A stretch of 34,139 nt of DNA, from positions 1 through 34,139 of the forward strand of contig JAKIZO010000022.1 of NCBI GenBank assembly GCA_022707965.1, read 5' to 3'. The notes beneath the pieces were generated by a model. It worked only from the letters and a program-made list of their open reading frames with translations, had not been told where the DNA came from and searched no databases. Position 1 is the stretch's first letter, and every line of letters begins with the position of its first letter. Made by a program: the position numbers and the translations under genes. Origin of the DNA: Bacteroidota bacterium (lineage in GTDB: Bacteria > Bacteroidota > Ignavibacteria > Kapaibacteriales > UBA2268). Positions 12,889 to 29,644 of the stretch are shown here, one piece after another.

Positions 12889-14028
12889 CTAAATTTTATT
12901 TGCGAATATATAAACAAAAGAGATAACAAGAATTAATATCCCAAAAATTGGGAAAATTTGCGAAATGTTAGCATATTGAAAGAGTGGCTGAACAACAATT
13001 GGCGAAAGAAACTGACCAACGTAAAGAGAAGTTGTAAGCAATCCACTGTTAATTCCACGATTATTTTCAGTCGAATGTGCTAATATGTGAGATTTCAAAT
13101 TTGGAATTACCAGACCATTTCCTAATCCAGAGAAAATTAGCGACGAAACAAGCAAAACTAAATTAGATGAAAATAATACCAAGAGATGCCCGAAACCCCA
13201 AATTGCAAATCCAATCATATAGACATAGCGAAACGCTACTCTATTTTTAATTTTCGGGTAAAAAAGTGATGAAATTGAAGAAAACATTATCCAAATTGCA
13301 ATCAGCAAGCCAATTTTTGATGCGGGGAAATCTGGGAACTGCGAATTTATTAAAAAAGGCAATTGAGTGGGCACCATCAGATAGCAAATCATAACAAAAA
13401 TTGCACTTAAATAAATCAAAGATGTTTTCAAATTAAAAGAGAAGTGGACACGTTGCTTTGTCTCAGAAGCACGACAAGTTTCATCAAGGAAAAATAATAG
13501 AAGAATTCCGACAATAATTGACACAGCATAGGTGATAAAAGGGACATTCCAGTTAATATCAGCGAGCAATCCACCAAGCAGTAAATAAATAACCCCTGCG
13601 AAACTCATTATTGCACCCTGAATGCCAATGAATTTGTTTCGCTTTTCACCTTCGAACAAATCACCTAATACAACTATAAATCCTGTCATCAAGGCAGAGA
13701 TTGCAATTCCAAGCAATGCTCGCCCGACTAAAATTAAATAAATATCGTTAAGATAATAGCCCGTTGTTCCCGCAATTCCATAAAGAATAGCAGCAAAAAT
13801 TAAAATCGGTTTTCTGCCGAATCTTTCGAATAAATAACCTGAAATAGGAGAAAAAATAGCAATAAATAGCGGTGGCAGTGATAATATTAATTTCGTAAGA
13901 AACTCAATATTGTCAATATCTGAGAAATCATAAGTAATATATGGCAAGGCAGGCGTTACAATTGCACCTGCCATAACTGATAGAGTGCTTCCAAATAAAA
14001 TAACAGCATTGCGAATAGTTGTTTTCAT
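12889..14028 (-). CDS. MFS transporter
   Basis: A 379-residue inner-membrane protein with about twelve hydrophobic helices. The loop between helices 2 and 3 has GYLFERFGRKPIL, the major facilitator signature (G-x4-D/E-R-x-G-R-R/K). The order of helices and the central cytoplasmic loop near residue 190 (DETCRASETKQRVHFS) are normal. Drug or sugar efflux is the usual role. In this operon it could export a product or intermediate of surface-glycan work. The start is ATG at 14028, one base after the stop of the glycosyltransferase. An upstream TTG start at 14046 would overlap that gene and is less likely. Confidence 0.85.
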   Translation of the reverse strand: MKTTIRNAVILFGSTLSVMAGAIVTPALPYITYDFSDIDNIEFLTKLILSLPPLFIAIFSPISGYLFERFGRKPILIFAAILYGIAGTTGYYLNDIYLILVGRALLGIAISALMTGFIVVLGDLFEGEKRNKFIGIQGAIMSFAGVIYLLLGGLLADINWNVPFITYAVSIIVGILLLFFLDETCRASETKQRVHFSFNLKTSLIYLSAIFVMICYLMVPTQLPFLINSQFPDFPASKIGLLIAIWIMFSSISSLFYPKIKNRVAFRYVYMIGFAIWGFGHLLVLFSSNLVLLVSSLIFSGLGNGLVIPNLKSHILAHSTENNRGINSGLLTTSLYVGQFLSPIVVQPLFQYANISQIFPIFGILILVISFVYIFANKI

Positions 14029-14029
14029 A

Positions 14030-17000
14030 TTAAAAGATAAGCTCAATTTCTTCTACATTTGGACGATTTCCAGCGATGAGTTTTTCGTATGTCATTATAA
14101 TGTGGTCAAGATAGTCATCGAAATTATGGGTCAATTTGCAATTTGAACGCCAAATACTGATTAATCCAGGATTTTCTACAACTTCCCACAAAATTTTTGT
14201 AAGTTCGGAAGGAGAATTGTGATTATAGAGTTTGCCATTTATTTCGTGTTTCACAAAATCGGGAAATCCTCCCAAGCGAGAAGCAATAACAGGAAGTTTC
14301 ATTGCGATTGCTTCGGCAATAACAAGTGGGGCACAATCCTCCCAAACGCTTGGCAATACAATCGCGTCAAGTTGCTCAGCAATTGAAGGGAGATCATCAG
14401 TTGAATATTGCCCCATAAACTTAATTCTATGATTAACATCAAGTCGTTCAAGCAAGCGATGGTAATCTTGCGAAATAAAACCATAAATGAGAAATTCAGC
14501 TTTCTCTTTCGGTATTGACTGAGCTGCCTGAACCAGCACGTGAGCACCTTTGTGTGGCATAACTCCACCAATATAACCGAAACGAAGCGGATGTTCAGGC
14601 TGCCTATTTCGTATATTCAATGAAGTTAATTTTTGTGCTTGCTCGGGCACTTGATGAACGATGGCAATCTTATCAGGGTTAATTCCAAAATCTACGAATA
14701 GTTCCTTAACTCTGCGAGATACAGCAAGGGTGTATGTAATGTGCTCATTCACTAATTTTTTGGCTGCCTGAATACGATTTCTAAATGAATTGTGTAAATC
14801 TGGATAATTGCGAGCAAGTTCAGAATTGGCAAAAAAGTCTGTGTTGTTCCACAAAGATAAATCAGAGCGATAGAGATAAAGCATTGGGTCGATAATATGG
14901 TAATTATGCGTTGTGAAAACAGAAGGAATTCCTTTGGAGAAAGGAATTTCTCCAATTGCAAATGAAAGTCCGAGGAAATTGTTGTAGTGAACTATATTAG
15001 GTCTGAATTCATCAATAACCTGTGCAAAGAGCTGGACTATTCGTTCGTCTCGGATTTCTCTTTCTGGGTTTAAAGCATCTAAAAACACCGTTGGACGATT
15101 ATAAACACCATATAGATGAACACCTTGCTCTACTCTATATTCCAGGTAATATGGTTTTTGAATTGTTGGATGGTTTGCCGTTGCATAGAACACAGCTACT
15201 TCATATCCACGTCGAGCAAGGGCAATTGCAACTGAACGAGGGAAAGTAGTTCCGCCGCCGCTTTCGTTCCAACCGTACATTGTTAGCAAAATGCGCGGTT
15301 TTGCTTGTGTTTCGGGGCTTTCAGCAATGATATTTACAGGCTCGGGCTTTGTATCAGAAATATCGAATAAATCTTCGAATTGAAAATCTGAACTTTGTTC
15401 GCTTATTTTGCAGTATGAATTGAACAATTCTTCATCAATTTCGAGCGACAAAATTTCTTGTTCGCTCAATGAATGCAAGTTTGGAACTAATAGTATATTC
15501 CCTAATCTCTGGATTTCGGCGATCTCACCTATTTCGGACAAATTCTGCACAACTTGCAATAAACGTTGATTTACAGATTGTTCGACGGGGAAATCTTGGT
15601 TATCAATATCAATAGCGTTTTCTATTTTAGTAAGTTTTCCCCACTTTTGAGCGAATAGAGCAATTTCGGGTTCAGACGGCATATTTACTTCAAGTCTTTC
15701 GTTGATAATAACTACGCTATCAGTTATACAAATCGGTGGAAACCCAATTTCTTTTGCTCGTAAGGAAAAATCAATTTCAAAGAGGAAGCTATGAAAGCTT
15801 TCGTCGAATAGCCCTATTTTTTCAATTAATTCAGAGGAAAAAGCAAGGCAATTTGCAGATAAAGCATCTGAAAAAACGCATTCGACTGAGGTGGCAAGTG
15901 TTTCATATTCTTCGTTTTGATTCTGGTATAAAAAGTTTAGTTTTTCGTCCTTTGCTTCGATTTTAATACCTGTTGAATGAACTAAACTACTATTTGGGAA
16001 AAGCTTTGGCAAAGATACAATTGACTTTGTGGATTTTAAATTATCAATAATGACATCCAACCAATTTTGAGAAACTGATTGCACTTCGTTGAGAACAACG
16101 AAGTAATTACCATAGGCATTTTTAATTGCATTATTGATTGCCTTTGCAACAGGCAGAATGTTATAATTTCTTACAAATCTAAAATTAATTCTTTGTGAAG
16201 CAAATTTTTTGAGGATATTTAATGTTTCATCAGTTGAAGCATTATCCGAGACAATGATTTCAAAGTTATATTTAGAATTATGCACATAAATAGAATTAAT
16301 CAGGCGTTCGAGCAAATGAGCCTGGTTTTTTGTATGAATGATAATCGAGACGAGTTCTATTGTGTCTTTTGTACTTTGCGTTTTTGGTTGAATTTCTTTA
16401 TTAATAGATTTTGCAGGACTGAAGACGGTATCGCCTGACATACTTTTTTTCAAATTTGCTTTTAACGAAAGTAAATCGACATCATATCTGAAAATTGAAA
16501 GGGCTTTTTCGCAATATTCATAGGAAGCGGTCTTCTCACCAATTTCAAAATATGAAAACGCAATAATTTTGAGTGCATCGAAATTATTTGGCTCAAAGTC
16601 GAGCAAACGTTTTGCAACTTGAATTGATTTTTCGTATTGTTTAGACTTCCAGTAGGCTCGGGCTAAAAGAGTGAGTGCTTCACGATTGAAAGTTTCTTCA
16701 ATTAGATTATTACAAACATCTATATTATTGGAGTAATTTTCAATTTTAAAGTAAGATTGAGCAAGTAAAAATTTTGCCTCGTTGTTGCTCGGGTCAATTC
16801 GAAGGACATTTTCAAGAAAATCAATAGTGTCTTTATATAAATGCTTTTGCAAGGCAAGTTTAGATAGAAGCAAAAATGCTTTACTGTCGCGTTCCTGGTC
16901 AATAACTTTAAGTAAATCTGCAATGATTTTGTTATTGAGAGCATCAATATTTGGGAAATATGGTATTTTCAGAGTATTTTCAAGAGCTGAGAAAAGATAT

Positions 17001-17827
17001 TGTTTAACTTCGCTTGCATATGAATAATTTTTAAGCTTAGTAAATAAATCAAAATAGTAGGTAGCTTTGACAAATGTAAAAATATCGTCAATTTGAGAAT
17101 TAAAAAGTCCGGTCATCATATCAAGAGTATTAATATGCCCAAGATGGCGGTCTTGCAATGTTTTTGAAGTCCAGGCACTTTTGGGGTGTTCGCGATATAC
17201 AGCCATCACATCATTTATGAAGAAAATATCTCCTTTGCTTGCATTAAGAAGATGAACAGCATAATCACGTGCGGGAATTGTTTTCAAAATATCAAGGTTA
17301 GTGTCGAAAAGACCGTGACGAAAAACAACGGAAGGTGAATGCATAAAGTTTCCGAAAGCAAGGTCGTAAATTGTTGAAATTTGTTTTTGCTGTGGATTAG
17401 AAATAATCGGTTTTTGATTGCTTTCTTCGTAGATAATCTTAACGGGATGAAAACAAACGGCGATATTTGGATTTCTTTCCAAAATGTCAATTTGTTTTTG
17501 CAATTTATAGTCATCAATCCAATAGTCGTCGCCGTCGCACCAGGCAATATATTTACCACGATATGCGGCAATAGTGCGTTCGCCGTTAGCAACCACACCT
17601 AAATTTCTTTCGTTTTCAATAAGATTAATAATATCAGGATACTTTTCTTTGTAGTTGCGGCATATTTGACGAGTTGCATCAGTGGAGCAATCCTCGCCAA
17701 TGATTATTTCAAAAGGGAAATTTGTTTTCTGAAAGACAATTCCTTCAATACATTGAGCAATATATTTTTCGTGATTATAAGTTAAAATTCTTACACTAAC
17801 AAGAGGATTATTAACTAAATTGCTCAT
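14030..17827 (-). CDS. Giant glycosyltransferase: GT2 - TPR - GT2 - GT4
   Basis: This is a single frame of 1265 residues with three transferase modules. The first GT2 (about 8-220) has VSVRILTYNHEKYI and the DxD-type CDGDDYW at 97-103. TPR-like helical repeats follow (about 310-460), probably for protein contacts. The second GT2 (about 491-710) begins ELVSIIIHTKN and has SDNASTDET, but where DxD is expected it reads VVLNEVQ, so it may be weak or inactive. After a linker comes a GT4 module (about 845-1250) with GWNESGGGTTFPRSVA, GYIGGVMPHKGAHVL and WEDCAPLVIAEA. It probably adds two or more sugars of a surface glycan or glycoprotein at the cytoplasmic membrane face. Start and stop overlap or abut their neighbours by a base. 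Confidence 0.9.
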   Translation of the reverse strand: MSNLVNNPLVSVRILTYNHEKYIAQCIEGIVFQKTNFPFEIIIGEDCSTDATRQICRNYKEKYPDIINLIENERNLGVVANGERTIAAYRGKYIAWCDGDDYWIDDYKLQKQIDILERNPNIAVCFHPVKIIYEESNQKPIISNPQQKQISTIYDLAFGNFMHSPSVVFRHGLFDTNLDILKTIPARDYAVHLLNASKGDIFFINDVMAVYREHPKSAWTSKTLQDRHLGHINTLDMMTGLFNSQIDDIFTFVKATYYFDLFTKLKNYSYASEVKQYLFSALENTLKIPYFPNIDALNNKIIADLLKVIDQERDSKAFLLLSKLALQKHLYKDTIDFLENVLRIDPSNNEAKFLLAQSYFKIENYSNNIDVCNNLIEETFNREALTLLARAYWKSKQYEKSIQVAKRLLDFEPNNFDALKIIAFSYFEIGEKTASYEYCEKALSIFRYDVDLLSLKANLKKSMSGDTVFSPAKSINKEIQPKTQSTKDTIELVSIIIHTKNQAHLLERLINSIYVHNSKYNFEIIVSDNASTDETLNILKKFASQRINFRFVRNYNILPVAKAINNAIKNAYGNYFVVLNEVQSVSQNWLDVIIDNLKSTKSIVSLPKLFPNSSLVHSTGIKIEAKDEKLNFLYQNQNEEYETLATSVECVFSDALSANCLAFSSELIEKIGLFDESFHSFLFEIDFSLRAKEIGFPPICITDSVVIINERLEVNMPSEPEIALFAQKWGKLTKIENAIDIDNQDFPVEQSVNQRLLQVVQNLSEIGEIAEIQRLGNILLVPNLHSLSEQEILSLEIDEELFNSYCKISEQSSDFQFEDLFDISDTKPEPVNIIAESPETQAKPRILLTMYGWNESGGGTTFPRSVAIALARRGYEVAVFYATANHPTIQKPYYLEYRVEQGVHLYGVYNRPTVFLDALNPEREIRDERIVQLFAQVIDEFRPNIVHYNNFLGLSFAIGEIPFSKGIPSVFTTHNYHIIDPMLYLYRSDLSLWNNTDFFANSELARNYPDLHNSFRNRIQAAKKLVNEHITYTLAVSRRVKELFVDFGINPDKIAIVHQVPEQAQKLTSLNIRNRQPEHPLRFGYIGGVMPHKGAHVLVQAAQSIPKEKAEFLIYGFISQDYHRLLERLDVNHRIKFMGQYSTDDLPSIAEQLDAIVLPSVWEDCAPLVIAEAIAMKLPVIASRLGGFPDFVKHEINGKLYNHNSPSELTKILWEVVENPGLISIWRSNCKLTHNFDDYLDHIIMTYEKLIAGNRPNVEEIELIF

Positions 17828-18483
17828 TATTCCACCTTTTTCAATAGTTTTGCGGGATTACCAGCCCAAACTTCACCTTCCCCAATATTTTCGAGGACAA
17901 CAGCACCCATTCCAACAGTAGCATAATTACCAATTTCAACGTATTCACGGATACAAGCATTTAGGCTGACAGTTACTGCTTTACCAATTTTCAAATAAGC
18001 ACCAGTGCAGCAATTTGCGGCAAAAAATGAGTAATCTCCGATAACGCTATTATGTCCAATAGTTGCACCAACCATAACCCTACAACATTTTCCAAATTTT
18101 GTGCCTGACGACACTGAAACATTAGGCATAATCACACACCCAGGCGATAATTCAACATTCGGGGCAACATAAGCCATAGGATGAACAAAAGTTGCAAGCC
18201 GTTCATCAGGAATATTCAAACTCTCAAATAAGGCAATACGTTCTTTTTGACCTCCAACTTTAAAAATTGTATTTATAAAGAAGTAACCTTCGTCTAATAA
18301 CCTGGGAATATCTTTCAAGCCTCCATGCACCGGGAAGCCCTCAATTTCGCTTGTGTTGTCTCTATCATTAATGAAACCAGCGCATATTAGTTCCTCATAG
18401 CCTCGTTTGTTTGCGTCGGCAATAGCGTGGGCAATTACCGAACCATTTCCAAGACCACCCATTATTAATACTTTTTTTGCCAT
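17827..18483 (-). CDS. NeuD-like sugar O-/N-acyltransferase
   Basis: A 218-residue protein with an N-terminal Rossmann-like half (KKVLIMGGLGNGSVIAHAI) and a C-terminal left-handed beta helix of hexapeptide repeats from about residue 95, ending AVVLENIGEGEVWAGNPAKL. This matches the NeuD/PglD group, trimers that move an acyl group from a CoA thioester to a sugar hydroxyl or amine. The family keeps a catalytic His in the beta helix; GATIGHNSVIGDY carries a good candidate. Its stop overlaps the glycosyltransferase start (TAATG), so translation is coupled. The acyl donor here could come from the CitE/MaoC pair upstream in the operon; that is inference. Confidence 0.85.
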   Translation of the reverse strand: MAKKVLIMGGLGNGSVIAHAIADANKRGYEELICAGFINDRDNTSEIEGFPVHGGLKDIPRLLDEGYFFINTIFKVGGQKERIALFESLNIPDERLATFVHPMAYVAPNVELSPGCVIMPNVSVSSGTKFGKCCRVMVGATIGHNSVIGDYSFFAANCCTGAYLKIGKAVTVSLNACIREYVEIGNYATVGMGAVVLENIGEGEVWAGNPAKLLKKVE

Positions 18484-18484
18484 A

Positions 18485-19183
18485 CTATATTAACTCATAT
18501 TGTTCTAAATAGTTCGCAATTGTTTTCGGTGAATTATACATTGCTAAATCAATAATTGAATAAAAAGAAATATAACAATTTTGGTCGAAATTTTCGATTA
18601 AATTAGTTTTTAAAAAGTATAATTTAAGAGATTTTTTTTCGAAATACTCTTTGCTGTATAAGTCGACACCGCCAATAGCATTGATATAAGTTAAGCAGTT
18701 TTCTTTCTTTGCAATGTCAATCAATCTATCTGCACCTTTTAATTCATTCTGATAGTTTGTCTGAGAAGATGAAATTTTAAAATCACGTTCTAAACCTATG
18801 TATTTACAAAATTCAAGAATAGAAGAAATGGCAAGTTCTGATATTTTGATTGGTTCGTTTTCTAAAACTTTGAGAATAATTTCAATTACATTATTAAAAT
18901 ATGGAGAATGCTTATAATTATAATGTAAAGTTTTGATGAATTTACCGAAAAAGTCACTTTCCCAATCGATAATTGTCTCGCAAATGAGTTTGTTTTGACT
19001 AATGGATTTGCAAGGGATGGTAAAATAATATTCATTGCCATTTGCGACAATTCGGTTTCTGTTTATCCAGCCCTTTTTAATAAAATTAACATTATCTAAA
19101 AATATAAATTTATCAACAGAATGAATGAGTTGAAAGTATCCAATATAAGGGAAAGCGTATGGCTGCATTATTGCAATTTTCAT
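18485..19183 (-). CDS. WbqC-like protein
   Basis: A 232-residue protein of the WbqC family, found in O-antigen and other surface-glycan loci. It starts with the hallmark MKIAIMQPYAFPYIGYFQLI, followed by VDKFIFLDNVNFIKKGWINR. The family is thought to act in making or attaching unusual sugar amides, but the reaction is not settled as far as I know. The fold is probably cytoplasmic; no signal or membrane helix is seen. It overlaps the CitE-like gene by 4 bases (ATGA) and leaves one base before NeuD, so it is in the middle of the operon. Confidence 0.85.
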   Translation of the reverse strand: MKIAIMQPYAFPYIGYFQLIHSVDKFIFLDNVNFIKKGWINRNRIVANGNEYYFTIPCKSISQNKLICETIIDWESDFFGKFIKTLHYNYKHSPYFNNVIEIILKVLENEPIKISELAISSILEFCKYIGLERDFKISSSQTNYQNELKGADRLIDIAKKENCLTYINAIGGVDLYSKEYFEKKSLKLYFLKTNLIENFDQNCYISFYSIIDLAMYNSPKTIANYLEQYELI

Positions 19184-20079
19184 ACTTTGCTTTTTTTATT
19201 AATCAATTCTTGTTTTTTAAGAATTTTACGAGCAGCAAGTATCATCGGCGGTCCGATAAATTTACCGTCTTTGACAGCAACGCCTTTGCCTTCGGAGTGT
19301 GCTTGTTCGGCAAGTTTAAGCATTTCTTCTGCCCAGGCAACATCTTCCTCGGAAGGTGAAAAGTATTTATGCACAAGTGGTATTTCCTTAGGATTAAGCA
19401 CAAGCATTCCTTCGAAACCAAGATTTTTAGCAATTTTCAAATTGCGTTCAAGGTCGATTAAATCGTGAACTTTAATGTGAACAGTATCAATAGGAATTAC
19501 ACCATTAGCGCGTGCAGCCATTGCAATTGTTGCCCGCGGAACGAATAAGCTTTTGCTTTCAGCGTCGTGGATACCTTCAAGGTCGGTAATAAAGTCTTCA
19601 CAACCATAGGCAAGAGCAACAACACGATTGGATGCTTTGCATAAGTCCTGTGCATTTAATACTGCGGCAGTAGTTTCCACAAGTGCAATTATTTTAAATG
19701 TCCCGATTGGTATCATTTTCTCATATTCTATGGTTTCAAGCAATTTATCGAAAAAGTAAATATCTTCGCCCAATTTTGATTTAGGATACATAAATCCAGT
19801 AATACCATCGATGGTAAGCTGATACACATCTTGCAGAAGATGGCCGCTTTCGCGGTCATTCACTCTTGGAAAAACGAAGTGATTGCGGAATTTGCCTTCC
19901 TTTACAAATCTTATGATTGTGTCTCTTGCAACTTGTTTATTTTCATCGGGTTGAACCGAGTCTTCTATATCCAGAAGCAAAACGTCTGCATCCGACCGAG
20001 CCGCACTATTAAGCAACCTTTCGTTATGCCCAGGAACAAACATCAAGCTTCTCATGAGATAAGGAAAACGGCTATTCAT
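19180..20079 (-). CDS. CitE-like acyl-CoA lyase (HpcH/HpaI family)
   Basis: A 299-residue TIM-barrel enzyme of the CitE/malyl-CoA lyase type. It cleaves or forms C-C bonds in 3-hydroxy-acyl-CoA thioesters using Mg. The motifs are RSLMFVPGHNERLL (CoA/substrate region), DVLLLDIEDSVQPDE (metal and catalytic acids), FPRVNDRESGH (Arg), KIIALVETTAAV (metal Glu) and a second acidic loop, AYGCEDFITDL. Length fits stand-alone CitE-like proteins. The partner citrate lyase subunits CitD and CitF are absent. The start overlaps a MaoC-like hydratase by 8 bases, a pairing known from malyl/methylmalyl-CoA modules. The surrounding glycan genes suggest a role in supplying an acyl group. Confidence 0.85.
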   Translation of the reverse strand: MNSRFPYLMRSLMFVPGHNERLLNSAARSDADVLLLDIEDSVQPDENKQVARDTIIRFVKEGKFRNHFVFPRVNDRESGHLLQDVYQLTIDGITGFMYPKSKLGEDIYFFDKLLETIEYEKMIPIGTFKIIALVETTAAVLNAQDLCKASNRVVALAYGCEDFITDLEGIHDAESKSLFVPRATIAMAARANGVIPIDTVHIKVHDLIDLERNLKIAKNLGFEGMLVLNPKEIPLVHKYFSPSEEDVAWAEEMLKLAEQAHSEGKGVAVKDGKFIGPPMILAARKILKKQELINKKSKV

Positions 20080-20533
20080 TGCTGTTTCTCCTTTTGATTA
20101 GGACTTTTCTTCGAAATTTAAGAACTTCAACATTATTTTGATTGTAAGCTACCGTCTCAACATAGACAATTCCTCTATCTTTTTTGGTTTTAGAGGGTAT
20201 TAAATCAAGAATTTTCGTTTTTACGTAAATAGTGTCGTTGATAAATACAGGATGCAGGTGTTCAATTTTTTCATATTCCAAATTAGCAATTGCTTTGCCG
20301 CTTATTTCAGGGACCGTCAGCCCAACCGCAAGGCTAAAAACAAGGGTGCCGACTACTAATATTTTACCGTGCTGACTTTTCTGCGCGTAATCAAGATTTG
20401 TATGCAATGGGTTTGCATTCATTGTAAGCAAAGAAAACAAATTATTATCGCTTTCGAAAATTGTTTTCGAAAGTGGATGCTCGATAATTTCGCCAACTAC
20501 AAAATCCTCGAAATATTTACCTAATTTATCCAT
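20072..20533 (-). CDS. MaoC-like enoyl-CoA hydratase/dehydratase
   Basis: A 153-residue hot-dog-fold protein. The catalytic-loop region reads LLTMNANPLHTNLDYAQ where classic hydratase-2 enzymes have G-D-x-N-P-L-H, so the usual Asp is Asn here while the His is kept. The second part, HPVFINDTIYVKTKIL, is the typical MaoC strand set. It would add or remove water on an acyl-CoA, acting before or after the CitE-like lyase. The gene ends within the start of the lyase gene (8-base overlap), so the two enzymes are made together. The Asn form may be normal for CitE-linked MaoC proteins; check by alignment. Confidence 0.85.
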   Translation of the reverse strand: MDKLGKYFEDFVVGEIIEHPLSKTIFESDNNLFSLLTMNANPLHTNLDYAQKSQHGKILVVGTLVFSLAVGLTVPEISGKAIANLEYEKIEHLHPVFINDTIYVKTKILDLIPSKTKKDRGIVYVETVAYNQNNVEVLKFRRKVLIKRRNSNE

Positions 20534-20563: not shown

Positions 20564-21313
20564 CTATTTTCTTGCCAGAATCAAATTTTCCTTCTCATTT
20601 AAGCCATAAATAGATGGTTGAAATTTTGGTAAAACCTCGTAGTGGTTATAAATCTGCAAGTGGAAACCTGCCTGTTTAATATCATCAAATAGTTGTAATC
20701 CGAATATTCTTACGTGGTCGTTTTGTCCGTAAAATTTTTCTTTTAAAGATGGGGTATCAATTAAAAAATCCTCGAAATTATTATATATCAACGATGAAAA
20801 AGGAGTTTGCAGTATTGCTGTTCCTTTTGGTTTTAGCACTCTGTATATCTCAGCAAGAGCTTTTTTATAATCAGGGATATGTTCTAAAATATGATTTGCA
20901 ATAACATAATCGAAAGTAGCATCGTCGAATGTGATTTGCGTTAGGTCAATTTTGTAGAAAGGGTTGATATTCAGATGAAGGTATTTTTCGGGTTCTAAAT
21001 CTCCACAAATAAAATTCATCGAGGGCTTTGCAATTTTCTTCAAAAAATTAATTTCAGGGGCAACATAAAGAATTAACTTATTCTCGAATTTATCCAGTTC
21101 CCCAATTTCTTTAAGGAACAAATACAAATGACGTTCGCGGTCAGTGGAACCACAAGCTGGACACTGGAAGTAACGCGGGTCTGTTCCAATTATATCAAAG
21201 TTGCGAACAAAATCTGTTCCTTCGTTTTTTTGCCATTCCTTAAACTCGTTAAAATAATTTTCGCAGAAAATGCAATAGCATTTTTCCTTGACGTAATATG
21301 GATAGTCTGTCAT
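20564..21313 (-). CDS. Class I SAM-dependent methyltransferase with Cys-rich N-terminus
   Basis: A 249-residue protein. Residues of about 10-65 hold two Cys-x2-Cys pairs (CYCIFCENYF and CPACGSTDRERH), likely a zinc knuckle. The rest is a Rossmann methyltransferase of the Methyltransf_11 kind: LILYVAPEINF (motif I, weak in glycines), FDYVIANHILEHIPDYKKAL, then RVLKPKGTAILQTPF. Such Cys-headed methyltransferases are frequent in glycan and O-antigen operons and may methylate a sugar. It is the first gene of the tight minus-strand operon; 121 bases separate it from smpB, leaving space for its promoter. Confidence 0.85.
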   Translation of the reverse strand: MTDYPYYVKEKCYCIFCENYFNEFKEWQKNEGTDFVRNFDIIGTDPRYFQCPACGSTDRERHLYLFLKEIGELDKFENKLILYVAPEINFLKKIAKPSMNFICGDLEPEKYLHLNINPFYKIDLTQITFDDATFDYVIANHILEHIPDYKKALAEIYRVLKPKGTAILQTPFSSLIYNNFEDFLIDTPSLKEKFYGQNDHVRIFGLQLFDDIKQAGFHLQIYNHYEVLPKFQPSIYGLNEKENLILARK

Positions 21314-26561: not shown

Positions 26562-27605
26562 ATGGAAATTTTATTATTAACAGATAAAAATAACTTTTTC
26601 GGGCAAACTCGAAAACCTTGGGTTAGTATTGATACGCAAAAGTTTATTTCAAATCTTTCAAGTTATGGAATTAATTGTAGACTGTCAACTTTTCCATTGG
26701 TTGCTACTGGCATGGAAATTCCAAGCAACGAAATAATTTTTTACCATTTTAGTCAAAAATGGAACTTACGCCAATACTTAAAAAATGTGGCTGATATATT
26801 AAATCAACTCAATAATAAACTAATACCATCTATTGATTTACTTCGTTCACACGAAAACAAAGGTTATCAGGAACTTTTAAAAAAAGTTCGAAATGTAAAT
26901 TCTCCAAAGGGTTACTACATTTCTTGTGTTGATGATGTTCTTTCAATCGACCTGCAATTCCCGCTTGTTGTAAAAACAATAGATGGCTCGAACGGCAAGG
27001 GTGTTTTTCTATGCAATAATATTCAAGAAATATATAAAAGTTTGAAAGAATATAGAGGCATTAAACTAAACGAGAAATTAGATTTGCTACGACGCAGGTA
27101 TTTTCGGAGAAAGAAAAATTATCCTGAATATCCCGATTATGATAATTATAAAGATTATATTGAATATAAAGAATACATAAAAAGAGATATAAGATTTGTT
27201 GTTCAGGAATTTATTCCCGGACAGAAGTTCGACTATCGAGTGCTTGCTATTTACGATAGATATTACGTTATTAAGCGGCACAACAGAGAAGGAGATTTTC
27301 GTGCGAGTGGTGCAAAGAAATTTGATATAGATTTCGAAATTGACGAAAATTTGCTATATTCAGCTGAGCAATTCAAAAATGCTTTTCCAGACACTCCTTA
27401 TCATTCGATGGACATAATATTTGATAATCGAGATAAAACTTACAAACTGCTGGAATTTCAAGCTTTGCACTTTGGAATAAATGTCATTGTCAAAAATGAT
27501 GGCTATTTTATTAAGAAAAATGGTTGCTGGGTAAAAGTATACAAGCGAAATGCCTTCGAAGATGAACTTGCTTATGGACTTGCAAAGTTTTTAGGTGCAA
27601 GCTAA
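26562..27605 (+). CDS. ATP-grasp domain protein
   Basis: A 347-residue protein with the ATP-grasp layout of YheC/YheD- and RimK-like ligases. The lysine segment is LVVKTIDGSNGKGVFLCNN with its glycine-rich loop. The hinge is VVQEFIPGQKFDYRVLAI. The region that would bind metal is TYKLLEFQALHFG, where many members have E-x-N, here E-F-Q. A Tyr/Lys/Asp-rich insertion (about 170-205, repeated YPEYPDY and YKDYIEYKEY) is unusual. The product is unknown; such enzymes join a carboxylate to an amine or sugar. It leads the run of glycan-like genes that follows rseP by 15 bases. Confidence 0.75.
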   Translation: MEILLLTDKNNFFGQTRKPWVSIDTQKFISNLSSYGINCRLSTFPLVATGMEIPSNEIIFYHFSQKWNLRQYLKNVADILNQLNNKLIPSIDLLRSHENKGYQELLKKVRNVNSPKGYYISCVDDVLSIDLQFPLVVKTIDGSNGKGVFLCNNIQEIYKSLKEYRGIKLNEKLDLLRRRYFRRKKNYPEYPDYDNYKDYIEYKEYIKRDIRFVVQEFIPGQKFDYRVLAIYDRYYVIKRHNREGDFRASGAKKFDIDFEIDENLLYSAEQFKNAFPDTPYHSMDIIFDNRDKTYKLLEFQALHFGINVIVKNDGYFIKKNGCWVKVYKRNAFEDELAYGLAKFLGAS

Positions 27606-27620
27606 TGAAGGAAATTGATA

Positions 27621-28670
27621 ATGGTTTTTTCTGAAATTCTTTTGAAAATACCTTATTCGATAGTATGGAAAATTTCTAATTTTTTTAGAAAAAGCGAGTT
27701 AATTGCATTTTATTGCCACGAATTGCTGGATTACGAGATTTTTCGTAACGTTCACAAACTGCTACCAAAAATTCAAGTTATAGCAAAAAATAAGAAATTA
27801 GCAAAAGAATTGGGTGCAAAATACGGTATTAATTGTAAAATTTATCCTGTATTTCCTGATGTTGTAATTATGGCACGGCATAGCTTGCACCTATTCCCCA
27901 CCTCGAATATTATCAAAATTGGGCTGCGACACGGCGCTTATCACTTCAAAAATTTCATTTCAGCGGAGAAATACAATAAATTTGATTTATTTTTCTTCAC
28001 TTCGATTTCAGAAGTTGAGCAAGCATCAAAATTGGGGATTAAAAATGCAGAATATGGTGGATTTCCCAAGTGCGACACTCTTTTCGATGAAAAGATTAAG
28101 ATTGAAGCCAATAAATTAAAGGAATTGCTTGTATATCCCGATAAACCAACAATATTGTTTTCATCCACCTGGGATAAATCGGGCATTGCAGGAGTGCATT
28201 TTTGGTACGACAGACTTGATGAATTATCAGGTAAGTATAACGTACTAGTAACTTTGCATCCCTGGGTTAGTATGCAAATAGTAGATAAAATAAAGAAAAC
28301 GAAAAATGTCAAATTGATTTCGAACGATGAGATCTATAAATATATGTTGATTTCAGATGTTTTCGTAGCTGATGTAAGCTCGATAATTGCCGAATTTATG
28401 CTGCTTGGAAAACCAATTTTTACATTTAAAATACCGATTAAGGGTCGGTTATCCGAAGAAATTTATGATTTGCTCGAAAAATATACAATTAGAATTGCTA
28501 ATTTTGATGATTTGAATAGAGAACTTTTTAGAGTTTTGCAAGAAAGAGATAAAAAATGGGACTATGAGCATTGCTTGAATTTATTTTTTTCGGGCAATTT
28601 GGGGCGACATTCGCAAATAATGGCGGGTAAAATCAAAAGTTATTTATTGACAAAAGGAATAGAAATTTGA
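27621..28670 (+). CDS. CDP-glycerol glycerophosphotransferase-like (TagB/TagF type) protein
   Basis: A 349-residue GT-B-like protein. Its second half shows the pattern of the CDP-glycerol/teichoic-acid polymerase family: PTILFSSTWDKSG, VTLHPWVS, and SDVFVADVSSIIAEFMLLGKPIF, whose D-x-S-S-x-x-x-E core is the nucleotide-binding signature. The first half has the GLRHGAYH motif with a likely catalytic His. In Gram-negative relatives such proteins make phosphate-linked surface glycans. The start is ATG at 27621 with AAGGA well placed; TTG at 27615 is less likely. It follows the ATP-grasp gene by 15 bases and overlaps the epimerase by 4. Confidence 0.8.
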   Translation: MVFSEILLKIPYSIVWKISNFFRKSELIAFYCHELLDYEIFRNVHKLLPKIQVIAKNKKLAKELGAKYGINCKIYPVFPDVVIMARHSLHLFPTSNIIKIGLRHGAYHFKNFISAEKYNKFDLFFFTSISEVEQASKLGIKNAEYGGFPKCDTLFDEKIKIEANKLKELLVYPDKPTILFSSTWDKSGIAGVHFWYDRLDELSGKYNVLVTLHPWVSMQIVDKIKKTKNVKLISNDEIYKYMLISDVFVADVSSIIAEFMLLGKPIFTFKIPIKGRLSEEIYDLLEKYTIRIANFDDLNRELFRVLQERDKKWDYEHCLNLFFSGNLGRHSQIMAGKIKSYLLTKGIEI

Positions 28671-29644
28671 TAGCAAAAGGCAAAATATTAGTTACAGGAG
28701 TTGCTGGTTTCATTGGCTCGAAAGTAGCTGAATTGCTACTTAATGATGGATATAACGTTGTTGGAATTGATAATCTTAACGATTATTATAGCCCAAAGCT
28801 AAAATTGCATAGATTAAATTTTTTAGAGAATAACTGTGATTTTCAATTTTATAATCTTGATGTAGAAAATTTCGTTGAGCTCGAAAATTTATTTGCAAGC
28901 AACAAGTTTATTTCAGTTATTAACCTTGCTGCACGTGCAGGTGTTCGAGCAAGTATAGAAAATCCATTTGTATATGTGAGCACTAATATTGTTGGCACAT
29001 TAAACCTGCTTGAATTGATGAAAAAATATGCTGTTAGCAAATTTGTGCTTGCATCGAGCAGTTCAGTATATGCAGGGGAGAAAGTTCCATTTCAGGAAAA
29101 TATGCGAGTGGATTTTCCTATTTCTCAATATGCGGCAACCAAGAAATCAGCTGAATTGCTCGCATATACATACCATCATTTGTATGGAATTGATGTGTCG
29201 GTTCTGCGTTTTTTCACTGTTTTTGGACCAGCAGGTCGACCGGATATGAGTTACTTTCAGTTTATCGAGAAAATACGTAAAGGTTTGCCAATCACGCTTT
29301 ATGGAGATGGCAACCAGAAACGCGACTTCACTTATATTGATGATATTGCCAAAGGAGTTGTAGCTTCGATGAAACCACTTGGATATGAAGTTGTTAATTT
29401 AGGTGGTGGAAGAAATCCCGTTACTATTAATCATATGATTGAACTAATTGAAATAGCTTTACAACGCAAAGCAATAATTGAATATAAACCATTTAACAAT
29501 GCAGATATGAACGAAACGGGTGCAGATATTACCAAAGCCAAAACACTACTAAGCTGGCAACCCCAAATTGATTTCGAAACGGGAATTGACAACACAATCA
29601 AATGGCACAAACAAAACATAAGTTTGTTGGATAGTTTAGACTAA
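28667..29644 (+). CDS. NAD-dependent nucleotide-sugar epimerase (UDP-glucuronate/UDP-glucose 4-epimerase-like)
   Basis: A 325-residue extended short-chain dehydrogenase. It shows the NAD motif GVAGFIGSKVAELL at about residues 11-24, the acidic ribose-binding VVGIDNLNDYYSPKLK, the catalytic SSSVYAG, and the Tyr-x3-Lys pair YAATK (Tyr155, Lys159), then RFFTVFGPAGRPDM. NLNDYYSPKLK and the GRPDM loop fit UDP-glucuronate 4-epimerases. It would make a UDP-sugar for the glycan genes beside it. Start is TTG overlapping the previous stop by 4 bases (TTGA); no ATG is available near the NAD motif. It ends 19 bases from a convergent gene. Confidence 0.85.
   Translation: MIAKGKILVTGVAGFIGSKVAELLLNDGYNVVGIDNLNDYYSPKLKLHRLNFLENNCDFQFYNLDVENFVELENLFASNKFISVINLAARAGVRASIENPFVYVSTNIVGTLNLLELMKKYAVSKFVLASSSSVYAGEKVPFQENMRVDFPISQYAATKKSAELLAYTYHHLYGIDVSVLRFFTVFGPAGRPDMSYFQFIEKIRKGLPITLYGDGNQKRDFTYIDDIAKGVVASMKPLGYEVVNLGGGRNPVTINHMIELIEIALQRKAIIEYKPFNNADMNETGADITKAKTLLSWQPQIDFETGIDNTIKWHKQNISLLDSLD

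Follow-up and report, generated by a model that had tools for sequence, protein, structure and literature searches.

Why should two genes of acyl-coenzyme A (acyl-CoA) chemistry lie within a run of glycan genes? This question is raised by a 34,139-nucleotide stretch of DNA (hereafter the window; contig JAKIZO010000022.1) from a 2.1 Mb draft genome of a Bacteroidota bacterium of the Ignavibacteria. On its minus strand, a gene for a MaoC-like (R)-hydratase/dehydratase of 153 amino acids (20072..20533) is followed by genes for a CitE-like TIM-barrel protein of 299 amino acids (type C2; 19180..20079), a WbqC-family protein of 232 amino acids (18485..19183), a NeuD/PglD/VioB-like left-handed beta-helix N-acyltransferase of 218 amino acids (17827..18483) and a glycosyltransferase (14030..17827). 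The open reading frames agree with a preliminary description of this DNA: the MaoC-like and CitE-like genes overlap by 8 bases, the CitE-like and WbqC genes overlap by 4 bases, the WbqC and NeuD-like genes are 1 base apart and the NeuD-like and glycosyltransferase genes overlap by 1 base. The several glycosyltransferases mentioned in that description turned out to be a single multi-domain protein of 1265 amino acids (GT2 - TPR - GT2-like - GT4; matches to PF00535, TPR models and PF00534/PF13692). We consider it likely that MaoC-CitE(-WbqC)-NeuD forms a cassette that moves between genomes by horizontal transfer and serves the acylation of surface glycans: it would provide a small non-acetyl acyl-CoA whose acyl group is transferred by NeuD to a 4-amino sugar.

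To place the pair among its relatives, one scan of 84,980 species was used. It yielded 80 loci (given below by L numbers) and, with the window, 79 distinct loci with a clean C2-type CitE, in which neighbours were counted within roughly 8 kb on either side. MaoC was present in 74 of these loci. In 73 it immediately precedes CitE, at distances between -56 and +61 bases, and the two genes overlap in most cases, an arrangement far beyond chance. A NeuD-type acyltransferase was found in 68/79 loci and a DegT sugar aminotransferase in 56/79, followed by NeuB/PseI (16/79), CMP-sugar synthetase (14/79), PseG-like (12/79) and WbqC (10/79) genes. As a rough yardstick for the DegT count, the entire 2.1 Mb window genome contains two strong DegT genes. 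In 31 of the 79, a second CitE-like gene, CitE1, was located upstream of MaoC (for instance in L021, L053, L060 and L074), giving the order CitE1-MaoC-C2; in L038 and L042 CitE1 stands directly beside C2 with no MaoC between them. The CitE1 product has about 272 amino acids and is 21-28% identical to C2. Glycan genes were present in 78/79 loci, the only locus without a glycan marker being L045. The preliminary description had assigned the pair to glycan clusters and had named, as the sign that this was wrong, a position of most relatives beside carbon-metabolism genes and away from glycan genes. The assignment holds, since 78 of the 79 clade members are in glycan loci, beside NeuD-type acyltransferase and 4-amino-sugar genes.

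Metabolic surroundings were confined to relatives outside the C2 clade, with identities of about 27-35%. Four of these (L176, L177, L180 and L181) belong to citrate lyase clusters that also contain CitF, aconitase and PrpD-like genes, and two others carry a sister MaoC-CitE pair (MaoC 41-46%, CitE 27-35% identical) in a non-glycan neighbourhood (L178 7351-8678 and L184 7489-8825; gene names around the distant relatives, beyond CitE, MaoC and the CitF-type cluster, were assigned by eye from sequence). Such relatives would be consistent with the pair being a carbon-metabolism module, for itaconate, citramalate or leucine breakdown, whose place in glycan clusters is accidental or purely regulatory. 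This explanation is very improbable, given that the close relatives in glycan loci come from about 14 phyla and that the profile scores are far under those of the metabolic enzymes. The best NCBIfam match of MaoC, RipB/Ich (NF038241), reached 126.8 bits against an equivalog cut-off of 340, and CitE scored 114.5 against 375 for RipC and 176.8 against 443.4 for citE. Judged by these scores, MaoC and CitE of the window belong to no named equivalog. No CitD or CitF gene was found in the window, and CitF-type genes occurred only beside the distant L176-L181.

The carriers of the cassette include Bacteroidota, Cloacimonadota, Ignavibacteriota, Delongbacteria, Bacillota and a betaproteobacterium. Within the family of the window, only 6/54 genomes had any match. 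In a sample of 392 genomes of the phylum, a CitE of at least 40% identity was found in 8 and a MaoC of at least 60% in the same 8, with the two genes side by side; the next CitE matches were at 31% and below and lay in citrate lyase clusters (CitF-type, aconitase and PrpD-like genes). The closest named relative is L009, an Ignavibacteria metagenome-assembled genome (MAG), with a CitE of 96% identity. On a quick CitE tree with long outgroup branches, C2 formed one side of a branch with a support of 100 (SH-aLRT, the Shimodaira-Hasegawa-like approximate likelihood ratio test), separated from citrate lyases, malyl-CoA lyase, CLYBL, Rv2498c, the L178/L184 type and CitE1, and the phylum labels were partly scattered. 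The high identity across phyla together with the patchy presence points to horizontal transfer of the MaoC-CitE cassette, although MAG binning errors and the caution that this tree requires keep it from being proof. A search of plasmid records gave no match.

A likely role of the cassette was indicated by operons for pseudaminic acid (Pse) synthesis, which concern the relatives only, as the window genome has no PseI match. In L060, PseB, PseC, PseF and PseI all passed their equivalog cut-offs (502/408, 452/424, 274/206 and 464/340, score/cut-off), and the cassette is located between PseF and PseG, with no GNAT in the operon. Ten further loci are arranged in this way, completely or partly; contig ends truncate some of them, and L050 had neither CitE1 nor PseF in view. 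PseI scored above the cut-off in all 11 genomes, and the Pse-type locus needs 6 changes on the CitE tree. A PseH-type GNAT was found in the operon in 0/11 cassette loci but in 18/20 cassette-free Pse loci (L205-L224; Fisher p 9e-7, relatedness ignored), and the cassette was in 0/20 of these controls. The controls were taken roughly in the order of PseI score with few omitted and were not chosen for a GNAT, although five GNATs beside PseI had already been seen before the control scan, which was done with a profile built from one control locus. In the two exceptions, L211 (5723-6598) and L218 (7903-8778), the PseH slot holds a protein that is formyltransferase-like by motif, as judged by eye. 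Since the controls carry either a GNAT or a formyltransferase-like protein, the slot is one for an N-acylating activity, and in 11 loci it is filled by the cassette. This supports the earlier suggestion of a glycan-decoration route that runs via NeuD; the branched or hydroxylated acyl-CoA suggested with it is only a possibility. The filled slot is also a further point against a carbon-metabolism module. That the cassette serves N-acylation is thus well supported. PseG of L060 is unusually divergent, scoring 81.6 where the cut-off is 153.6. A different acyl group would lead one to expect this, because PseG acts after N-acylation and its substrate carries the N-acyl group; the divergence is only suggestive.

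The formyltransferase-like proteins of L211 and L218 would predict N-formyl pseudaminic acid, and a similar protein was found beside a GNAT in L220 (7305-8171). The absence of PseH from whole genomes by the TIGR03585 cut-off was dropped as evidence, as 0/11 cassette genomes and 0/30 cassette-free Pse genomes of the phylum passed. The model stayed under its cut-off in all 30 Bacteroidota-group genomes with PseI over the cut-off, despite a GNAT beside PseI, so that annotation by TIGR03585 misses these proteins.

Which sugar would receive the group? The best solved relative of the NeuD-like protein is VioB 7txp (E 1.6e-22), and His144 (codon 18052-18054) was aligned to a His of this enzyme and is kept in 74/75 sequences. 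This aligned His and the full-length match place the protein, by sequence, in the NeuD/PglD/VioB family. Among 53 aminotransferases neighbouring the cassette, 10 were of the dTDP-4-amino-4,6-dideoxygalactose (Fuc4N) type, 10 of the PseC type and 3 of the LegC type at E 1e-120 or better, and 30 matched no equivalog at this level. Wherever the type was clear, the predicted product is a 4-amino-6-deoxy sugar, the kind of substrate that PglD/NeuD/VioB enzymes use.

MaoC (PF01575, 64.5 bits) had been described as having Asn where the catalytic Asp is usual. The residue is indeed Asn39 (codon 20417-20419), but it is no oddity: Asn39 and His44 (codon 20402-20404) are near-invariant in the subfamily, which indicates that MaoC is under selection and that Asn is normal for its type. 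The motif TMN..P[LV]H was found in nearly all of 77 aligned MaoC rows, with exceptions in L045 (Lys) and in an unrelated second MaoC of L069 (Asp). Asn is also found in MaoC relatives from non-glycan contexts, namely as TLNTQPLH in L178/L184 and as QNTxxVH in domain 2 of 8hgn and 4e3e. We therefore rejected Asn39 as the sign of a dead or odd MaoC. The active site, with its His and with Asn replacing Asp, is that of MaoC proteins of the RipB/Ich and mesaconyl-CoA-hydratase-like kind, and the best solved relatives include 8hgn, described as a beta-methylmalyl-CoA dehydratase.

The altered catalytic residue is instead in CitE (PF03328 HpcH_HpaI, 125.5 bits). Its AlphaFold2 model, with a predicted local distance difference test (pLDDT) score of 94, was best matched in Foldseek by malyl-CoA lyase 4l9y (E 1.3e-20, template modelling (TM) score 0.85) and CLYBL 5vxc (TM 0.87, root mean square deviation (rmsd) 2.5), and predicts a TIM barrel with a C-terminal lid that matches the solved lyases over the full length. 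Glu135, Asp162, Arg72, Glu39, Asp40 and Asp37 are kept in 79/79 members. Their counterparts in the Rhodobacter sphaeroides malyl-CoA lyase are Glu141, Asp168, Arg76, Glu44, Asp45 and Asp42, that is, the two Mg ligands, the catalytic Arg, the two water ligands and the Asp that positions the Arg (PMC3832036). The lid Asp, Asp299 in R. sphaeroides (register set by the 4l9y alignment row, where Asp at chain position 320 minus an offset of 21 gives Asp299), is replaced in 79/79 by Gly276 (codon 19252-19254) within an F[IV]GPP motif; of 12 comparison sequences, 10 have Asp and 2 have Glu at the lid position. In malyl-CoA lyases this Asp acts as acid/base on the acetyl-CoA carbon and protonates the enolate, and it is conserved throughout the superfamily except in a malyl-CoA thioesterase cluster with Glu (Zarzycki and Kerfeld, PMC3832036). 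The stand-alone L178/L184 pair, which has Asn in MaoC, retains the lid Asp in CitE and is therefore of use as a metabolic counterpart to the glycan cassette. In addition, a new His18 (codon 20026-20028), located where the first strand ends, occurs in 78/79 members and in 0/12 comparison proteins; that it serves as a substitute base is a guess. With Gly in place of the lid Asp, straight malyl-CoA lyase chemistry cannot be assumed.

As for the acyl group, the leading guess, of low confidence, is a malyl/fumaryl- or citramalyl/itaconyl-type dicarboxylic or hydroxy acid (C4-C5), since the closest characterised relatives of CitE and MaoC act one after the other on CoA esters of this sort. A rival explanation is that the cassette makes a malyl- or citramalyl-type CoA by a reversed lyase reaction from acetyl-CoA and glyoxylate or pyruvate, that NeuD attaches a 4-malyl-like group and that MaoC gives an unsaturated form or an altered stereochemistry. 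The CitE fold, which matches malyl-CoA lyase, CLYBL and Rv2498c, and the MaoC relatives RipB/Ich and 8hgn are in line with this, and so is the regiochemistry of the 4-malyl amides known from glycans of Vibrio vulnificus and Pseudoalteromonas rubra (PMC3210612), which corresponds to malyl-CoA formed from acetyl-CoA and glyoxylate. However, the lid Asp is Gly throughout the clade and a plain malyl group would not need MaoC. The genera of the malyl-bearing strains were also absent from the cassette matches listed, with no check aimed at those strains. We regard this version as rather unlikely.

A CitE without lyase chemistry would be improbable as well. It could be a CoA-thioester hydrolase, an isomerase or a carrier, and the acyl group would come from MaoC alone, which could form (R)-3-hydroxybutyryl-CoA from crotonyl-CoA, for instance, and be attached by NeuD. 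3-hydroxybutyryl amides do occur on nonulosonic acids, for instance in Flexibacter maritimus, from which 2-hydroxyglutaryl amides are known as well (PMC3210612), and the only described exception to the lid Asp is the thioesterase cluster with Glu (PMC3832036), the residue found at this position in most CitE1 proteins. On the other hand, Gly is neither Asp nor Glu, a mere carrier would be unlikely to keep every Mg-site and Arg residue in 79/79 members, and ordinary metabolism already supplies 3-hydroxybutyryl-CoA, for which no special cassette is needed.

In L038 and L042 the lid position of CitE1 is Thr. In the CitE family the lid of one subunit covers the site of the next, so CitE1 could, by analogy, lend its Glu to C2 in mixed oligomers. 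As most loci have no CitE1, C2 must be able to work without it, and its absence from the window makes MaoC and C2 the minimal set.

WbqC (PF08889, 190.4 bits) is outside the core cassette, since it was found in only 10/79 loci. Its model (pLDDT 89) was aligned by VIA-align to BshC 4wbd with Z 15.0 and an rmsd of 3.3 over 224/232 residues, the next rows having Z about 8, whereas Foldseek gave an E of only 9.4e-3. The match is well above background and covers the whole domain, which makes a BshC fold the candidate, although BshC has 540 amino acids, most of the remainder of which WbqC lacks, and the sequence identity is 10%. In bacillithiol synthesis, BshC probably couples cysteine to a glucosaminyl-malate through the amine of the latter. 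With such a fold, WbqC may make or alter an amide bond on an amino sugar, which offers a new functional lead for this common O-antigen gene family.

Taken together, we propose that the CitE-like and MaoC-like proteins would make a small non-acetyl acyl-CoA, most likely by forming a C-C bond on an acyl-CoA that is then dehydrated or hydrated. The malyl, 3-hydroxybutyryl and 2-hydroxyglutaryl amides known from bacterial glycans (PMC3210612) are groups that would fit. As its family and position suggest, the NeuD/VioB-like protein would pass the acyl group on to a nucleotide-activated 4-amino-4,6-dideoxy sugar, at its 4-amino group, and the glycosyltransferase of the operon, and possibly WbqC, would then act on that sugar. 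Here we infer the reaction direction, the acyl donor and the acceptor in the window genome. Several points weigh against this proposal. The NeuD-like protein scored 148.6 bits against the TIGR03570 cut-off of 160.8, with residues 4-212 of 218 aligned (cassette-linked NeuD proteins of other genomes were likewise at 122-153 bits), and NeuD is directly downstream of CitE in only 36/79 loci. The window operon contains no aminotransferase gene, and the window genome has two strong DegT genes only, on other contigs and neither beside glycan genes. The acyl product is a prediction from the genes, and in a CitE without the lid Asp the assumed aldol step may not run as in its relatives.

A wider reading, to which we give somewhat less than an even chance, is that glycan N-acylation has an unrecognised route which spread horizontally. 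In it, a CitE without the lid Asp and with a His at the mouth of the active site would, together with MaoC, make the acyl-CoA by non-canonical chemistry, NeuD would transfer the group to 4-amino sugars, so that pseudaminic, legionaminic, Fuc4N-type and other sugars of a new kind arise, and WbqC would be a BshC-like amide ligase that adds a further group in some clusters.

The other genes of the window were also inspected. The first gene of the run, 30 bases upstream of MaoC, encodes an S-adenosylmethionine-dependent methyltransferase (20564..21313, minus strand; PF08241, 50.9 bits). It is part of the same run as MaoC-CitE, and this order is shared by L003 and L009, the latter a relative of the same genus, but the gene does not belong to the wider cassette. 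At the other end, an MFS transporter gene (12889..14046, minus strand; PF07690, 150.4 bits) overlaps the glycosyltransferase gene by 17 bases and is probably on the same transcript; a glycan role for the transporter is not supported. A probable further surface-polymer group is located on the other strand, 5 kb from the cassette (26562-29644), with genes for a RimK-like ATP-grasp protein, a CDP-glycerol glycerophosphotransferase-like protein and a sugar epimerase/dehydratase. In L030, L037, L038, L041, L079, L080 and L083 (Cloacimonadota and others), the cassette is followed by a gene for a protein of roughly 430 amino acids (cluster 12). The only member compared with Pfam, that of L080, gave no match; by eye, the protein appeared to be of the CapK/PaaK type, and it might activate an acid.

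The varied N-acyl groups on surface amino sugars such as pseudaminic and legionaminic acid shape the recognition by phages, hosts and antibodies, and the synthesis of only a minority of the non-acetyl groups is known. The cassette points towards a defined gene set for one such group in dozens of cultured and uncultured bacteria, and strains that carry it instead of PseH in a pseudaminic-acid operon are the place to find the acyl group. C2 in turn is a clade of the well-studied malyl-CoA lyase superfamily that lacks its supposedly universal lid acid, and for WbqC both a fold and a chemistry are now suggested. In open-access full text, a scope that has most subscription journals outside, we found no relevant paper on MaoC, CitE or WbqC in a glycan context.

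How does the cassette compare to known systems? PseH occupies the same place in Pse operons and presumably performs the same N-acylation step, but it is one GNAT, whereas the cassette brings a left-handed beta-helix acyltransferase and three acyl-CoA-type enzymes. C2 shares with malyl-CoA lyase, CLYBL and Rv2498c the TIM barrel, the C-terminal lid helix and hairpin, the Mg ligands Glu/Asp, the catalytic Arg and the Glu-Asp water pair, and differs from them by Gly in place of the lid Asp and by the new His18. The itaconyl-CoA hydratase RipB and the (S)-citramalyl-CoA lyase RipC belong to the same two families, are the best NCBIfam match of MaoC and the second-best of CitE, and share the Asn of MaoC. 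The cassette however reaches only a third of their cut-offs, has no adjacent CoA transferase (RipA), lies in a glycan context and has Gly for the lid Asp. The nearest published analogue is the R-group system of Flavobacterium psychrophilum (wfpC-wfpG; PMC6519341), where an O-polysaccharide cluster likewise places genes for acyl synthesis next to a PglD-type N-acyltransferase, and a non-acetyl group is likewise put on the 4-amino position of a dideoxy sugar. In that system, a pathway resembling fatty acid synthase, equipped with an acyl carrier protein of its own, is the predicted source of the 3,5-dihydroxyhexanoyl group, whereas the cassette has a CitE-like and a MaoC-like protein and no carrier protein. 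Acyl-making genes beside a PglD-type N-acyltransferase are thus already known; the new element here is a conserved acyl cassette dedicated to glycans whose CitE is catalytically altered, and the enzymatic route may itself be new.

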